A stretch of DNA of 32,896 nt from an uncultured Eubacteriales bacterium (GTDB lineage Bacteria > Bacillota_I > Bacilli_A > RF39 > UBA660): contig ONQM01000008.1 in NCBI GenBank assembly GCA_900319955.1, forward strand, positions 1 through 32,896, written 5' to 3'. The position numbers and the translations under genes are program-made. Below are positions 3,415-14,263 of this stretch, one piece after another. Position 1 is the stretch's first letter. Every line of letters begins with the position of its first letter. Below the pieces are notes generated by a model. The model had not been told where the DNA came from, did no database searches, and was given only the letters and a program-made list of their open reading frames with translations.

Positions 3415-3434
3415 TAAAAAAGGAGGGTAAGGTT

Positions 3435-4031
3435 ATGAATAATATTTTAGAAAATGAAAAAGAAACATTAAGGAAAATAGATACTTCTGTTGCAATAAAA
3501 GACTTTTCAAAAAATGATAGAAAACCAGAAGAAATGAAAGCTATACTTGAACTTTTTGATAAAGCAGTTAATCCTTTTCTTGATAAAAAAGAAAAAGATT
3601 CATCTATTGATAAAATTTCAAATTTAGAGTCTAACAATGCAAGACTTTCTATAAAAGCAGCAAGTAACTCTTGCACTATTGAAATATCAAGTCTTGCAGG
3701 AATTACAAAGTATTCTTATAATCCTTTAGGTGTTTCTTTTTCTTTAAAAACAGATTTATATGAAGTTGTACATAGATATAGAAGTGTGCCAGACAAATAC
3801 TCATCTGGTGAATGCTTATATTTAAAATCTGATACTCGTGAGTTTGAATACAATTTAACTAGTGGTATAATATATAAAGATGAATTTGGAAACATAAATG
3901 GAAATGCAAGAGCAGCAACACGCGATGATATTTCACAAGTCTATCTTAGAATGTTTTATTTTCTAGATAAAGCAGATACAATTGCATTTGATAATTTAAC
4001 AAATGAATCTAAAGTAAAAAAATATAAATAA
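3435..4031 (+). CDS. Unknown protein A of a four-gene paralog array
   Basis: I do not recognise this 198-residue protein. It has no signal peptide and no membrane segment, so it should be cytoplasmic. A helical N-terminus leads to the motif FDKAVNPFL (about 41-49), then strands, then FEYNLTSG near residue 140 and a helical end. The same motif order appears in the next three genes (3435-6491), so they are paralogs. ATG 3435 is chosen because AGGAGGGTAAGGTT precedes it; the longer frame from 3405 would begin inside dgkA. The same ribosome-site sequence, GGAGGGTAAGGTT, also precedes gene B, which suggests the array grew by duplication. The array separates dgkA from cdd, which are adjacent in Bacillus. 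Confidence 0.75.
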   Translation: MNNILENEKETLRKIDTSVAIKDFSKNDRKPEEMKAILELFDKAVNPFLDKKEKDSSIDKISNLESNNARLSIKAASNSCTIEISSLAGITKYSYNPLGVSFSLKTDLYEVVHRYRSVPDKYSSGECLYLKSDTREFEYNLTSGIIYKDEFGNINGNARAATRDDISQVYLRMFYFLDKADTIAFDNLTNESKVKKYK

Positions 4032-4049
4032 TTTTGGAGGGTAAGGTTT

Positions 4050-4982
4050 ATGAAAGATATTGAGTATAAGGTTGTATTAAAAAAGCTTGGACTAAACTGG
4101 AAAAATTTATTATGCACATATGATGGAGGTCCAAATGATATCTATCAGTATAATGGACTTTTAATTGAAAAAGATTCTATAAGAGGAAGCATTCCAGTAG
4201 ATATATTAAATAAATATGATAGATATGCAAATTTTTCATACGATAAAAATAAAAAATATGTACATTTATATATAGATGATACAGAAGGACAAAAAGATCT
4301 TAAATTTAATAGTAAAGATGATTTAATAAAATTCTTAAAAGACATCAAAAATTACTATTTAAGAATAGATGTTTTAAGAAAAATATTACTTACAAAAAAA
4401 ACTATTGATGAAAGAGTTAATGAAAAATCATTATGCAATTTAGAGCAAGCAGAAGTATCACCAAGACTTAGATATAGCTTAGATAATTTTGACATAGCAA
4501 CAAGTCCATTTACATTCCCATCAATAAAAATAAAAGATAAAATGTTGAGTGAAATATCTTTTAATGTTACAGCAGATGATATAGAAGTTAAAGTAACAGA
4601 TACTGAAAGTAAAGATACATTAAAATTTACATTATATAATGGTGGATATCAATATTCATTATCATATAATGATGAAGGTAAAAAAATTATACTTGAACAT
4701 TATTTCTATAATAACAAAGAAAAAGTTCAGTATAAAGAAATAAAAGGCAGAAATATAAAAGTTACAAACTATAACTTAACAGATAAAAAGATGTCATCAT
4801 CAGAAAAACTCGGAAATAATAATAGAATCTATGCAGAAGATTATAGATTTATTAAAGATAAATTAGATGAAGGAAGAAAAAGAGCAGAAATAATTACAGA
4901 TGGATATCAAGATGATAATTTAAACAAAGAAAAAGTAAAAACAAGAAAAAAAATATATAAGCTGGGTGATTATAATGAATGA
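4050..4982 (+). CDS. Unknown protein B of the paralog array, long form
   Basis: A 310-residue, apparently cytoplasmic protein of unknown function. The N-terminal half (about 1-130) has no counterpart in the short forms. The C-terminal half repeats the pattern of gene A: FDIATSPFTF (147-156) matches FDKAVNPFL, and HYFYNNKEK ... TNYNLTDKK matches the C-terminal strands of A and C. The tail is rich in charged residues and may be flexible. It is preceded by GGAGGGTAAGGTTT, almost the same as in gene A. It ends in TGA and overlaps the start of gene C by 8 bases, which suggests translational coupling. Confidence 0.75.
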   Translation: MKDIEYKVVLKKLGLNWKNLLCTYDGGPNDIYQYNGLLIEKDSIRGSIPVDILNKYDRYANFSYDKNKKYVHLYIDDTEGQKDLKFNSKDDLIKFLKDIKNYYLRIDVLRKILLTKKTIDERVNEKSLCNLEQAEVSPRLRYSLDNFDIATSPFTFPSIKIKDKMLSEISFNVTADDIEVKVTDTESKDTLKFTLYNGGYQYSLSYNDEGKKIILEHYFYNNKEKVQYKEIKGRNIKVTNYNLTDKKMSSSEKLGNNNRIYAEDYRFIKDKLDEGRKRAEIITDGYQDDNLNKEKVKTRKKIYKLGDYNE

Positions 4983-5571
4983 AATAGAATTTGAAAATTT
5001 AATTACCAATATGGAAGATACAAGAGAAAAATTAAATGATATATATCCTAATATTTCTATTGAAAACTGGTCTAATATTTATAATAAAAAATTAGCAAAC
5101 ATAAATAATGAATTAAGAAGTGCATTTAATAAATATGATAAAAGTGTTAATCCATTTATAACAAATATTGTAACAGTACGTGATTTTAATAGTAATGTAG
5201 ATATTTTAGTTAAAGCAGATTTTGCAGATGTATCATTTAAAATAGTAAATGATGCAAAAGATGCAACTGTTTCATACTTAAGAAATCCAAATTCAATTTT
5301 CTTTAATGTAACATATAAAAGCCAATCTTTAAATAAAACTTCCACATCACATTATTTTAAAGATAATAAAGAATATTTTTATGTTAATGATAATGGATTA
5401 GAAACTAATTATAATTTAACAGATTTAACTGCAACACAGTTTAATACAGTTCATAAACTTGATTCTAAAAATATAGAATCAGTTTATTCAAATCTATTAT
5501 ATGCAACAAATTTAGCAGAGAAAGTAACAATTGAAAACATTGATAAAGCTAAAGCCTTAGTACTGAGGTAG
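4975..5571 (+). CDS. Unknown protein C of the paralog array, short form
   Basis: A 198-residue protein, exactly the length of gene A, and its closest match in the array: YDKSVNPFI (54-62) corresponds to FDKAVNPFL, and TNYNLTDLT near the end corresponds to FEYNLTSG. HYFKDNKEYFY resembles HYFYNNKEK in gene B. No signal peptide or membrane segment is visible. ATG 4975 follows GGGTGATTATA; an in-frame GTG at 4966 is less likely. The function is unknown. The relation to A, B and D rests on motif order read by eye, not on an alignment score. Confidence 0.75.
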   Translation: MNEIEFENLITNMEDTREKLNDIYPNISIENWSNIYNKKLANINNELRSAFNKYDKSVNPFITNIVTVRDFNSNVDILVKADFADVSFKIVNDAKDATVSYLRNPNSIFFNVTYKSQSLNKTSTSHYFKDNKEYFYVNDNGLETNYNLTDLTATQFNTVHKLDSKNIESVYSNLLYATNLAEKVTIENIDKAKALVLR

Positions 5572-5573
5572 AA

Positions 5574-6491
5574 ATGAATAAAGAAGAATTTGAAAAAGCA
5601 CTTGAAAATCTTGATATATATAACTCTATATTTAATATTAATTTGGTAAAAGAAAGTCTTAGTTATTATCTATATATATGGGATAATTATTCTTTTGTTT
5701 TAGATGAAAATGGTGTTTTAAGAATATCTAAAGAAAAAAGTTTAAGAGAAAACTTAAGAAAAATTCATGAAAATATATTTTCATATCCTTATATGTCTTA
5801 TTTAAATATTAAAGATGAACTATATTACGTTCCTTTAATTAAGAAATTTAAAGTAACAAATGATGAAGAATTTAAACATTATTTACAAGTTACAAGAAGG
5901 TATGTTTCTAATAATAGATTAAATGAAAGAGAAAAATTTAAAAATCCAGAATGTAATATAAAAAATGTATTAGATGAAATTTTAATAGATAATGATGATA
6001 TAACTTATATTTATGATTATCTAAAAACATCTGTAAATATGGATGAAGAATTAAGACAAAAATTAAATGATTTTGATAAAGATGTGCTATCATTTATATT
6101 AAATCAAAATATTCTAGATAAGCATGATTTATCTATTAATCATGATGAAATAAATCATAAATATAATATATCTATGTTTGATAAAGAAGAAAGTAATGTA
6201 ATGACATTTAATTTGTCTTTAGAAACTCTTAATTTATCTAAAATAATAGATTTTGATGATAGATATATTACAATTAGTCATAAATATATCTCTAATTTCT
6301 TTGATAAACCTAGAAAAAACTTTAAATTAAGAACTAATAATGAAGAAGTCATTGTTACATATGGTAGTGTAGAAAAAGAGACAAATAGGATCTATAACTT
6401 AGATGATGATTATGAAAATTTAATAGATATTTTAAATTTAGTAAGTAATAAAGAAAGTATTGAAAAAGTAAAAGAACTAGAGTTAAAATAA
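5574..6491 (+). CDS. Unknown protein D of the paralog array, long form
   Basis: A 305-residue protein of unknown function and similar length to gene B. After a unique N-terminal half, the motif FDKDVLSFIL (167-176) takes the place of FDKAVNPFL, and IYNLDD near the end takes the place of YNLT. An N-terminal stretch EEFKHYLQVTRRYVS can be set against DDLIKFLKDIKNYYL in gene B, so B and D are likely the two long members and A and C the two short ones. It starts two bases after the stop of gene C with only AGGT nearby, so it is probably translated by coupling. No signal or membrane segment was seen. Confidence 0.72.
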   Translation: MNKEEFEKALENLDIYNSIFNINLVKESLSYYLYIWDNYSFVLDENGVLRISKEKSLRENLRKIHENIFSYPYMSYLNIKDELYYVPLIKKFKVTNDEEFKHYLQVTRRYVSNNRLNEREKFKNPECNIKNVLDEILIDNDDITYIYDYLKTSVNMDEELRQKLNDFDKDVLSFILNQNILDKHDLSINHDEINHKYNISMFDKEESNVMTFNLSLETLNLSKIIDFDDRYITISHKYISNFFDKPRKNFKLRTNNEEVIVTYGSVEKETNRIYNLDDDYENLIDILNLVSNKESIEKVKELELK

Positions 6492-6507: not shown

Positions 6508-6885
6508 ATGAAAGAAGAATTAAAGGAGTTATTAAAAAATAGTAAGAGCATGTATTATCACTATCCAGTTGCAAGTATTCTTGTAACAGAAGATGGTGTA
6601 ATGTTTCCAGGCGTTAATGTTGAGTGTTCATCACAAGGGTCTGGTGTATGTGCTGAAAGGAATAGTCTATATTCTGCAATATCAAATGGATACACAAAAT
6701 TTAGCCATTTATATTTGATGTGTGAAAAAGGTGATTTAATATATCCATGCTTTATATGTAGACAAGCACTGCTTGATTATTGTAATGAGAATATGCCTAT
6801 TACTATTTACTATAATGGTGGTGAAAAAACTGTAACAGTTAAAGATTTAACGCCATTTGCATTTGGAGGAGATAATTTGAAATGA
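6508..6885 (+). CDS. cdd: Cytidine deaminase
   Basis: Hydrolytic deamination of cytidine and deoxycytidine to uridine forms, in pyrimidine salvage. The 125-residue product has the zinc site GVCAERNSLYSAI (Cys-Ala-Glu with the proton-shuttling Glu) and PCFICRQAL (Cys-x2-Cys), the hallmark of small tetrameric deaminases. The early YYHYPVASIL segment replaces the usual Y.PYS.F.VGA substrate loop. ATG 6508 sits behind GGAGG; the GTG at 6496 is part of that site. The stop TGA overlaps the era start as ATGA. The cdd-era order matches Bacillus. Confidence 0.92.
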   Translation: MKEELKELLKNSKSMYYHYPVASILVTEDGVMFPGVNVECSSQGSGVCAERNSLYSAISNGYTKFSHLYLMCEKGDLIYPCFICRQALLDYCNENMPITIYYNGGEKTVTVKDLTPFAFGGDNLK

Positions 6886-8637: not shown

Positions 8638-8680
8638 TTTTTTATATGTTAAAATGATAATAGTAGGAATAGTGAGCGAT

Positions 8681-9259
8681 ATGATGAAAGAAAATAAAAA
8701 TAATGAAAAAAATAAGATTAATATTAGTAGGGAAGCTAAAGTAATGGTACTTGTATTAGCTCTTATTATGGTAGTATTCGTTGGAAGTAGTTTTGCTTGG
8801 TATAATGTAACAGCATCATCAAACAATAGTGTAACACTTGATGTCGGATCACTTGATGTTACAGTTGATTCTACATCAGACTTATCACTTTCTGATGTAC
8901 TACCAGAATCAAAAGAAGATGCCCTAAAGGCAGATGGATTTAAATTTACTGTTAACAATAAAGGAACAATACCAGTTAACTATACAGTAAGCTTAAAAGA
9001 TGGAACATATGATTCAACTGAAACAAAGCTTGATGATAAATATGCAGCTTGTGTTCTTTATAAAGGAACTGAAAGTGTTCAAGATGGATATGTTTCAAAC
9101 TTTACAAATGGTGTTATGTATAATACTGATTTAGCAGAAGGCAAAAGTGATACATATGAGTTAAAATGTTATCTTGATGAATCAGTATTTGATAGTAATG
9201 CTGCTGGTAAAACATTCAAAAAAGTTGTTAATGTAAAAGCAGTACAGAAAGATTCATAA
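8681..9259 (+). CDS. TasA/camelysin-like secreted surface protein
   Basis: A 192-residue exported protein. A basic start is followed by a hydrophobic segment (about 20-38) and the cleavage region SSFAWYNVTASSNNSVTLDV, typical of TasA/CalY-type proteins, which SipW-like signal peptidases process and which can form surface fibres. The mature part has the family's beta-sandwich pattern: GSLDVTVDS, NNKGTIPVNYTVSLKD and, near the end, KTFKKVVNVKAVQ. Two cysteines in the mature part (CVLY and KCYL) could form a disulfide. ATG 8681 or 8684 is chosen because a -10-like TAAAAT (8650-8655) overlaps the upstream ATG at 8654. A related but broken gene lies at 28574-29254. Confidence 0.75.
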   Translation: MMKENKNNEKNKINISREAKVMVLVLALIMVVFVGSSFAWYNVTASSNNSVTLDVGSLDVTVDSTSDLSLSDVLPESKEDALKADGFKFTVNNKGTIPVNYTVSLKDGTYDSTETKLDDKYAACVLYKGTESVQDGYVSNFTNGVMYNTDLAEGKSDTYELKCYLDESVFDSNAAGKTFKKVVNVKAVQKDS

Positions 9260-10542: not shown

Positions 10543-11343
10543 ATGTTAGTTGTTCCAATAATAAATAGAGATAGAATAATGAATGTAGAAATAAAACTAA
10601 AAAATGCAACTAAACTTGATAGAAAAAATATTACTCTAAAAGAAGGAGTTTCCAAAAGTAATATAATTTCACATAATAGTGATTATAACACATCAAGCTA
10701 TAATATTAATGATGATGCATCTTTAATAACAGAATATATAAGAAATAGTGGAATACTTTACAAAAAAAACTACTTCATTGTAACTAAAGAGGAAGCAGAA
10801 AGTACAGAATTTGATTCTTTTGAGGTTAAATACCCAAGACTAAGAGTTAATGAAAATATAGATAAACTATATGGCGAACTTGTAAAAGACTTAAAAAACT
10901 CAATGCCTGATAATATAAAAGGACATTATATTGATTTTGGTAAACTTGGAATTACAAAAAATATAACTAAAGAAAAATTAAAAACATTAAAAGATATAGC
11001 AGATCACTCTGATCCAAAAGATTATAAAAGAGAAATAGAAGAAAATGATTTAGATGATCTAATAATAGAACTAGAATTCTTACTTAATGAATTTGATTTA
11101 ACTATAATACCAGAATCAACTATGAAACTTGAATACTTTGATAAATTACTAGATATATTTAGTAATATCAAATCAAGAGATTACAAGGCACTTAAAAATT
11201 ACAAACAAATAGCAGACAATAATAAAGAATGTTATTCAAAAATTTCTAAACTTTATAATATTGTATATAATGATAGTTTAAACTGGATACATAAAGAAAC
11301 ACCTAAAGAAAAAGCAAAAGTTAACATGAAAAAGGCATCTTAA
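10543..11343 (+). CDS. Unknown protein, first gene of the tcdA operon
   Basis: A 266-residue protein I do not recognise. There is no signal peptide or membrane helix. The first 60 or so residues look beta-rich (MLVVPIINRDRIMNVEIKLK), and the rest is mainly charged helices, including an acidic stretch EIEENDLDDLIIELEFLLNE, with a lysine-rich end. AAAGGAGTGG lies eight bases before the ATG. It ends one base before tcdA, so the two are co-transcribed, but nothing in the sequence ties it to tRNA modification. Confidence 0.7.
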   Translation: MLVVPIINRDRIMNVEIKLKNATKLDRKNITLKEGVSKSNIISHNSDYNTSSYNINDDASLITEYIRNSGILYKKNYFIVTKEEAESTEFDSFEVKYPRLRVNENIDKLYGELVKDLKNSMPDNIKGHYIDFGKLGITKNITKEKLKTLKDIADHSDPKDYKREIEENDLDDLIIELEFLLNEFDLTIIPESTMKLEYFDKLLDIFSNIKSRDYKALKNYKQIADNNKECYSKISKLYNIVYNDSLNWIHKETPKEKAKVNMKKAS

Positions 11344-13365: not shown

Positions 13366-13405
13366 AAATAAAAAAAAGTAAAGATTATTTTAGAGTCTTT
13401 ACTTT
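13366..13405 (-). terminator. Intrinsic terminator of the 292-residue gene
   Basis: On the minus strand AAAGTAAAGA (13405-13396) pairs with TCTTTACTTT (13384-13375) and runs into a long T tract. The upstream arm lies in the last codons of the gene, and the LexA-like gene behind it must have its own promoter or depend on read-through. Confidence 0.75.
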
Positions 13406-14263
13406 AGGTTTACTTTCAATTACTAAATCATACATATATTTATTATCATTTATTTTGTTATGATCTTCCATATATATTTTAATTAAATCTTTATAAAGTG
13501 TATTAAGAGATTTTGTAAAGTCTTTTAAACTTTCATTATCAAGAGTAAGTGCAAGATTTGCAAGCTTCTTTGATGCTAACCTATCACAATAAAGCTTAAG
13601 AGAATTTCTTTTAACCTTAGGAAAACTTTTTTTAATTTTTAAATTATTAATAAATGCAATAATACTATTAATGTCATTCAAACTTTCTATCTTTTCTCTA
13701 TATTTTTCTTTTTCTTCCATATTCATTTGAGCTCTTACACTAGATGCAGCATCAACCTTTAAAAGATTTCTTATTGTAGTTAATTTATTTTTCTTCTTTT
13801 TCTCAATATCATGCATATATTCTGATATTTCTTTAAATTCATGCCCATTTAAACAAAATACTTGATAATCAATATCCATTATTAGTCTTTCAATTATCTT
13901 ATCCTCTGATTCATTACCTTTAATTTTAATAAATATATTGTTTGTATTCTCTTTTAGATATTTCTTAACATCTTTCTTAGATACTTTTTTTCTTTTATCA
14001 TCTAAAACAAAATATAAGCTTTCAGCTTCTACAAATAATTTTTTATTAATAATTCCAGTAACACTAGGAACTATTATTGGAATAACATCACCATTTAAAA
14101 TATTTGTAAATACCTTTTTAGAATCATCATAAGTAACGAGTAACTTCTGAGTATTAAATTTATCTCTTAATTTCTTTTTAGTACTTTTACGAGTTAACCC
14201 AATATTAACACTTTCTTTATCTTTTTCCATCTTATATGCTGATATTTCATATATATTTTCCAC
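13385..14263 (-). CDS. Unknown lysine-rich protein
   Basis: A 292-residue protein not recognised. It has no signal peptide or membrane segment. Residues 1-90 look beta-rich with a possible small barrel (LLVTYDDSKKVFTNILNG, then IPIIVPSVTGIINKKLFV); the remainder is mostly charged helices, including EYMHDIEKKKKNKLTTIRNL, which could be a coiled coil. The start is GTG 14263, supported by AAGGAGG seven bases upstream. It faces away from mraZ, and a TATAAT on the minus strand at 14296-14291 can serve it. Its stop lies in the terminator hairpin. Confidence 0.72.
   Translation of the reverse strand: MENIYEISAYKMEKDKESVNIGLTRKSTKKKLRDKFNTQKLLVTYDDSKKVFTNILNGDVIPIIVPSVTGIINKKLFVEAESLYFVLDDKRKKVSKKDVKKYLKENTNNIFIKIKGNESEDKIIERLIMDIDYQVFCLNGHEFKEISEYMHDIEKKKKNKLTTIRNLLKVDAASSVRAQMNMEEKEKYREKIESLNDINSIIAFINNLKIKKSFPKVKRNSLKLYCDRLASKKLANLALTLDNESLKDFTKSLNTLYKDLIKIYMEDHNKINDNKYMYDLVIESKPKVKTLK

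Follow-up and report, generated by a model that had tools for sequence, protein, structure and literature searches.

Background

Lineage-specific ORFan families with birth-and-death turnover are patchily distributed, duplicated, truncated and decayed, and contain no known domain. The protein family reported here is like them in all of these respects, but differs in that its conserved polar signature is unusually clear and that one member has a confidently predicted fold. TipC-type and CDI immunity proteins, which are small partner-binding proteins, show a weak Foldseek resemblance to the family. In the case of the TipC-type fold, the comparison gave a Foldseek prob of 0.41 (E 1.1) and a VIA Z of 4.8 (rmsd 6.9 over 120 residues). 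The family differs from these immunity proteins in that no toxin partner was found and a signal sequence is lacking, and the scores are not significant. Among other described structures, the C-terminal domain of phage T4 MotA can be compared with the N-terminal domain (N-domain) of the family (Z 6.6, rmsd 3.1, 93 aligned residues; a level common for unrelated models), and the N-terminal region of TarM, the TCP domain of CPAP, p32, and OSBP-related domains have a chance-level fold likeness to its C-terminal domain (C-domain). What is alike in all of these is the general arrangement of helix and antiparallel strands; they have no sequence similarity to the family and share no context with it.

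In the present study, we analyzed a stretch of 32,896 nucleotides from an uncultured Eubacteriales bacterium (contig ONQM01000008.1; hereafter, the window), in which four genes, A to D, lie between dgkA and cdd. We found that they belong to a real, undescribed and lineage-restricted family of accessory genes, ordinary in kind and with fast turnover. The family is absent from the libraries that we searched; it now has a profile, a predicted fold for one member, and a short residue signature, with which others can find and test it.

Results and discussion

The four-gene block between dgkA and cdd

The four genes were located where a first-pass annotation of the window had placed them, with the same lengths (Table 1). 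The genes on the 5' side of the block are yqfD-like, VanZ-like, ybeY, and dgkA, and those on the 3' side are cdd, era, and recO. B and C share an 8-bp overlap at the end of B, and a gap of 2 bp separates C from D. Under a simple composition model, open frames of these lengths in AT-rich DNA have a chance of 2e-10 to 8e-16 per start; thus, it is very improbable that A to D are open by chance. When read by eye, none of the four proteins had an obvious signal peptide or membrane segment.

The ribosome-site sequence GGAGGGTAAGGTT, which the annotation had described as common to A and B, occurs twice in the whole genome, immediately 5' of each of these genes. It is nearly kept, as GAGGGTAAGGTT, ahead of A and B in the sister genome G006. 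This restriction to A and B, together with the near-conservation in G006, fits a common origin of the 5' flanks of the two genes. Promoter-like sites were found at chance level only and were uninformative on internal promoters.

Table 1. Positions of the family genes and their features in the window
Feature	Position	Strand	Description
Gene A	3435..4031	+	198 aa; linker and C-domain, without N-domain; signature D42, H113, E126, Y139
Gene B	4050..4982	+	310 aa, full length; signature D148, H217, E224, Y241
Gene C	4975..5571	+	198 aa; linker and C-domain, without N-domain; signature D55, H126, E133, Y146
Gene D	5574..6491	+	305 aa, full length, most divergent; signature D168, H236, E257 or E258, Y274
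N-domain of B	4050..4364	+	about residues 1-105; from alignment and AlphaFold2 model
C-domain of B	4449..4904	+	about residues 134-285; from alignment, profile, and AlphaFold2 model
Ribosome-site 13-mer GGAGGGTAAGGTT before A	3422..3434	+	one of two genome copies
Ribosome-site 13-mer GGAGGGTAAGGTT before B	4036..4048	+	other of two genome copies

Relationship among the four proteins

Direct BLASTP comparison linked A with C (E=5e-5), B with C (4e-6), and C with D (6e-4); the pairs A and B, A and D, and B and D gave no significant match. We therefore used leave-one-out family profiles as well, with the search size set to 1000 sequences. Each of the four was matched (A 9.6e-14, B 8.6e-21, C 2.8e-24, D 5.2e-7), and the best of 2000 shuffles reached only 0.015-0.054, so that D, the weakest of the four, still scored above all of the shuffles. 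From these direct links and profile matches, we conclude that the sequences of A to D are true relatives with C as the hub, as expected from the tandem paralogy proposed in the annotation. A profile that contained no sequence of this locus or of its G006 orthologues still recovered A, B, and C with E values of <=1.9e-13; its match to D was weak (2.2e-4). The profile matches of B (residues 1-301) and D (residues 1-278) both begin at position 1, and the match of the N-domain of D alone is weak. In each of the four proteins, the motif noted in the annotation starts 138-163 residues before the C-terminus. The later YNLT/YNLD strand, which the annotation gave for three or four of them, is also present in all.

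Distribution of the family

Within the same taxonomic family, the first profile found members in 17 of 291 genomes. A broader profile found them in 28 of 386 genomes, in 20 of 150 genera, with a few of the matches weak or fragmentary. One match among the family counts, in G184, is a Nudix regulator and was rejected as chance. Convincing matches in a class-wide sample of 395 genomes were confined to the same taxonomic family. The relatives that carry a name come from genomes of uncultured Bacilli, Erysipelotrichaceae, and Tenericutes, including one obtained from goat colon. Viral contigs, phage records, and plasmid records gave no relatives at the sensitivity used.

As the annotation had stated, A to D belong to no known family: no model in Pfam, NCBIfam, PHROGs, or PADLOC matched them above threshold (chance-level matches only), and none of the PDB sequence families did. 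Weak single-sequence matches to MiaB, a histidine kinase, GyrB, a coiled-coil protein, and a Nudix regulator were read and judged to be chance. PDB profile matches to ParC (0.0024) and NAP1 (0.005), which covered part of a domain only, were also taken as chance.

The usual form is one stand-alone full-length gene per genome, at housekeeping sites that differ by genus. The genome of the window (G000) contains a fifth member (G000:C19, 308 aa), flanked by pilin-like and PDZ-protease-like genes, and G006 has two more members elsewhere in the genome, beyond its copies of A, B, and C.

The operon site and neighboring genes

In G001-G005, all of the same genus, dgkA is directly adjacent to cdd, and this also holds for most of the other relatives in which the operon is kept; this bears out the earlier remark that the block splits an otherwise conserved operon. 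The block is thus either a gain in the line of G000 and G006 or a loss elsewhere. As A, B, and C pair cleanly with their G006 orthologues, these three genes are older than the split between G000 and G006.

Across genera, family genes adjoin unrelated housekeeping genes (glyS, serS, typA, def/aspS, thyX, ribosomal genes, and others; most of the neighbor names were assigned by eye from translations). Their position is shared within genera, namely in G000/G006, G086/G271/G706, and G303/G662/G721. In the neighborhoods read, no partner gene recurred across genera, and no defence island, mobile element, partner, or target was consistently linked to the family. Because the neighbors differ between genera and no partner recurs, the linkage to dgkA and cdd gives no clue to function.

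Two features of the operon in related genomes were also observed. For cdd (window 6511-6885; L090), the gene of G005 shares only 43% identity with that of the window, although era, dgkA, and ybeY of G005 are closer to the window than the G001-G004 genes are; a replacement of cdd in one line is possible. Two related genomes have two tandem dgkA copies at this operon (L086, L089).

Domains and conserved residues

Full-length members consist of about 310-400 aa and have two domains. The core of the N-domain is of the GxIPxE...YHIDTKEGL type, and the linker is often VNPxLSxxxWM. The C-domain contains R..L..FDxxVNPF, in which the D is invariant, followed by H, E, and YN(L/I)T. Among 33 members, D is present in all 33, E in 32, H in 31, Y and P in 30 each, and R in 29; two members have Y in place of H. 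The D/H/E/Y signature is carried by A, B, C, and D. The mean column identity of the 33 members is about 24%, and the conservation of the polar signature despite this divergence shows that a biochemical or structural role of some kind is maintained.

One member (L073:5154-6731) is extended at its C-terminus by about 130 residues. The same contig also encodes a 932-aa protein that ends in a HAD-type domain.

Predicted structure

An AlphaFold2 model of a relative, L074, made with ten other sequences, had a pLDDT of 82.6 and a pTM of 0.80, and a model of B had a pLDDT of 73 and a pTM of 0.56. Both have the same order, that is, an alpha/beta N-domain and then a helix, a beta-meander, and a helix. 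The meander of the modeled C-domain is antiparallel, with about eight strands between the two helices. In both models, the residue two positions beyond the Glu is the cross-sheet partner of both the His and the Tyr (DSSP hairpin registers), and the helix that precedes the sheet has the signature Asp at its end. Judging from strand registers rather than coordinates, His, Glu, and Tyr are probably on one face of three consecutive strands.

Foldseek found nothing significant; the best E values against PDB were 0.19 (L074) and 0.03 (B), and matches in a viral structure library were at E 0.025 or weaker. VIA-align Z values were <=6.6, the usual level for models without relatives. The absence of a structural match does not show a new fold. 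PcyA and PebS, which have a Glu/His/Asp active site, were considered and rejected; the order of the residues differs, and a Z of about 5.4 is not significant.

Rate of evolution, decay, and possible domain exchange

The family was shown to evolve far faster than its neighbors, under purifying constraint. For A to C, dN was 0.30-0.51 with a dN/dS of about 0.4, and for the operon neighbors dN was 0.10-0.16. Between G086 and G706, glyS is 99% identical and the family member 68%. As an N-domain dS of 0.99 suggests paralog replacement, we split this contrast by domain. The C-domain comparison is the safer one, with dN 0.17 and dS 0.55 for the family and dN 0.01 and dS 0.50 for glyS.

Decayed copies were found in G354, G708, and G012. 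In G086/G271/G706 (L050, L051, L143), the N- and C-domains have discordant nearest relatives, which suggests domain exchange between paralogs.

Short and long forms

The lengths of the four genes alternate in the window, and the ribosome-site sequence is common to A and B. On this pattern, the annotation had proposed that a short+long pair was duplicated and that the proteins make a two-part complex in two versions. Neither idea is supported by the wider comparison. G006 has A-B-C at the same site (identity to the window 60% for A and 52% for C) without D, and B matches C, not D. The core-domain tree places A apart from C and B apart from D, with AU tests rejecting neither grouping (A+C and B+D, p 0.28 and 0.29). 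The grouping of all four together is neither supported nor rejected (AU p 0.26-0.29 over the groupings tested), and beyond the orthologue pairs of A, B, and C with G006 the tree is poorly resolved. Most other genomes hold the single stand-alone gene, with no short partner. With no recurring partner and with unrelated neighbors across genera, a short+long complex is unlikely, and we give the whole proposal very little credence.

The short proteins A and C are better described as the long form minus its N-domain. Their profile matches start at the linker, and the N-domain is absent; as B and D have both domains, the alternation is a row of full-length and N-domain-less copies.

Possible function

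We lean weakly toward an accessory protein that stands alone, has a conserved site in its C-domain, and possibly takes part in conflict. The putative polar site of the C-domain (Asp, with His, Glu, and Tyr on the same side) would bind or act on a target, the N-domain and loops would give specificity, and each protein would work alone, without an obligate short+long pair. A role in biological conflict is suggested by the fast turnover and tandem expansion; a guess would be the binding or neutralizing of a phage or competitor factor, rather than dgkA/cdd metabolism. We hold this reading of A to D, as a lineage-restricted accessory family that has a conserved polar site in the C-domain and is perhaps driven by conflict, only tentatively. 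In a more specific form, the C-domain would be an uncharacterized enzyme or effector-neutralizing fold whose site consists of Asp, His, Glu, and Tyr, and the family would form a new conflict system (defence or immunity) of gut Bacilli whose specificity is tuned by loss of the N-domain and by domain exchange between tandem paralogs; we consider this form improbable. Should the family prove to be a conflict system, it would be one from a gut lineage that is mostly uncultured and has been little studied. Otherwise, it clearly exemplifies accessory genes of fast turnover inside housekeeping operons.

Fast change, patchiness, duplication, and decay fit conflict or weak constraint alike, and the fast evolution may simply reflect weak constraint. 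The genes would then be dispensable, with a minor housekeeping or regulatory role, and would drift quickly in a fast-evolving lineage without any arms race. The dN/dS of about 0.4, the patchy presence, the decayed copies, and the lack of associated defence or mobile genes in the neighborhoods read all agree with such drift, whereas the near-invariant D, H, E, and Y at so low an identity and the repeated tandem duplication (in the window and in G086) argue for a maintained function; we regard weak constraint as a serious possibility, though short of an even chance. It is rather unlikely that the proteins are binders of small molecules or lipids, with the C-domain an open calycin-like beta-barrel and the conserved residues in its pocket. 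The low-scoring structural neighbors of B do include OSBP-related domains, FABPs, CpeT, Diels-Alderase barrels, and PcyA/PebS, and B has a sub-threshold Lipocalin_4 match (E 0.47), but none of the structural scores rises above chance (Foldseek E no better than 0.03, Z <=6.6), and the linkage to dgkA is not conserved between genera. The copies are also tandem, fast-evolving, small, and single-domain, as would suit orphan immunity proteins in an array that shields the cell from toxins of its neighbors, and Foldseek gave weak likenesses to TipC2 (values as above) and to a CDI immunity protein (E 0.09). These likenesses are not significant, however, and no toxin gene is adjacent. An LXG immunity role is not supported, since LXG toxin was found in none of the 40 genomes examined, with a positive Bacillus subtilis control; we think a shielding array quite improbable.

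Other open reading frames in the window

Outside the block, the window contains ORFs of 266 and 292 aa (10543-11343 and 13385-14263), which match neither Pfam nor the A to D family. The ORF at 8654-9259, which has a hydrophobic segment at its N-terminus and the motif SSFAWYN, may resemble secreted TasA/camelysin-like proteins.
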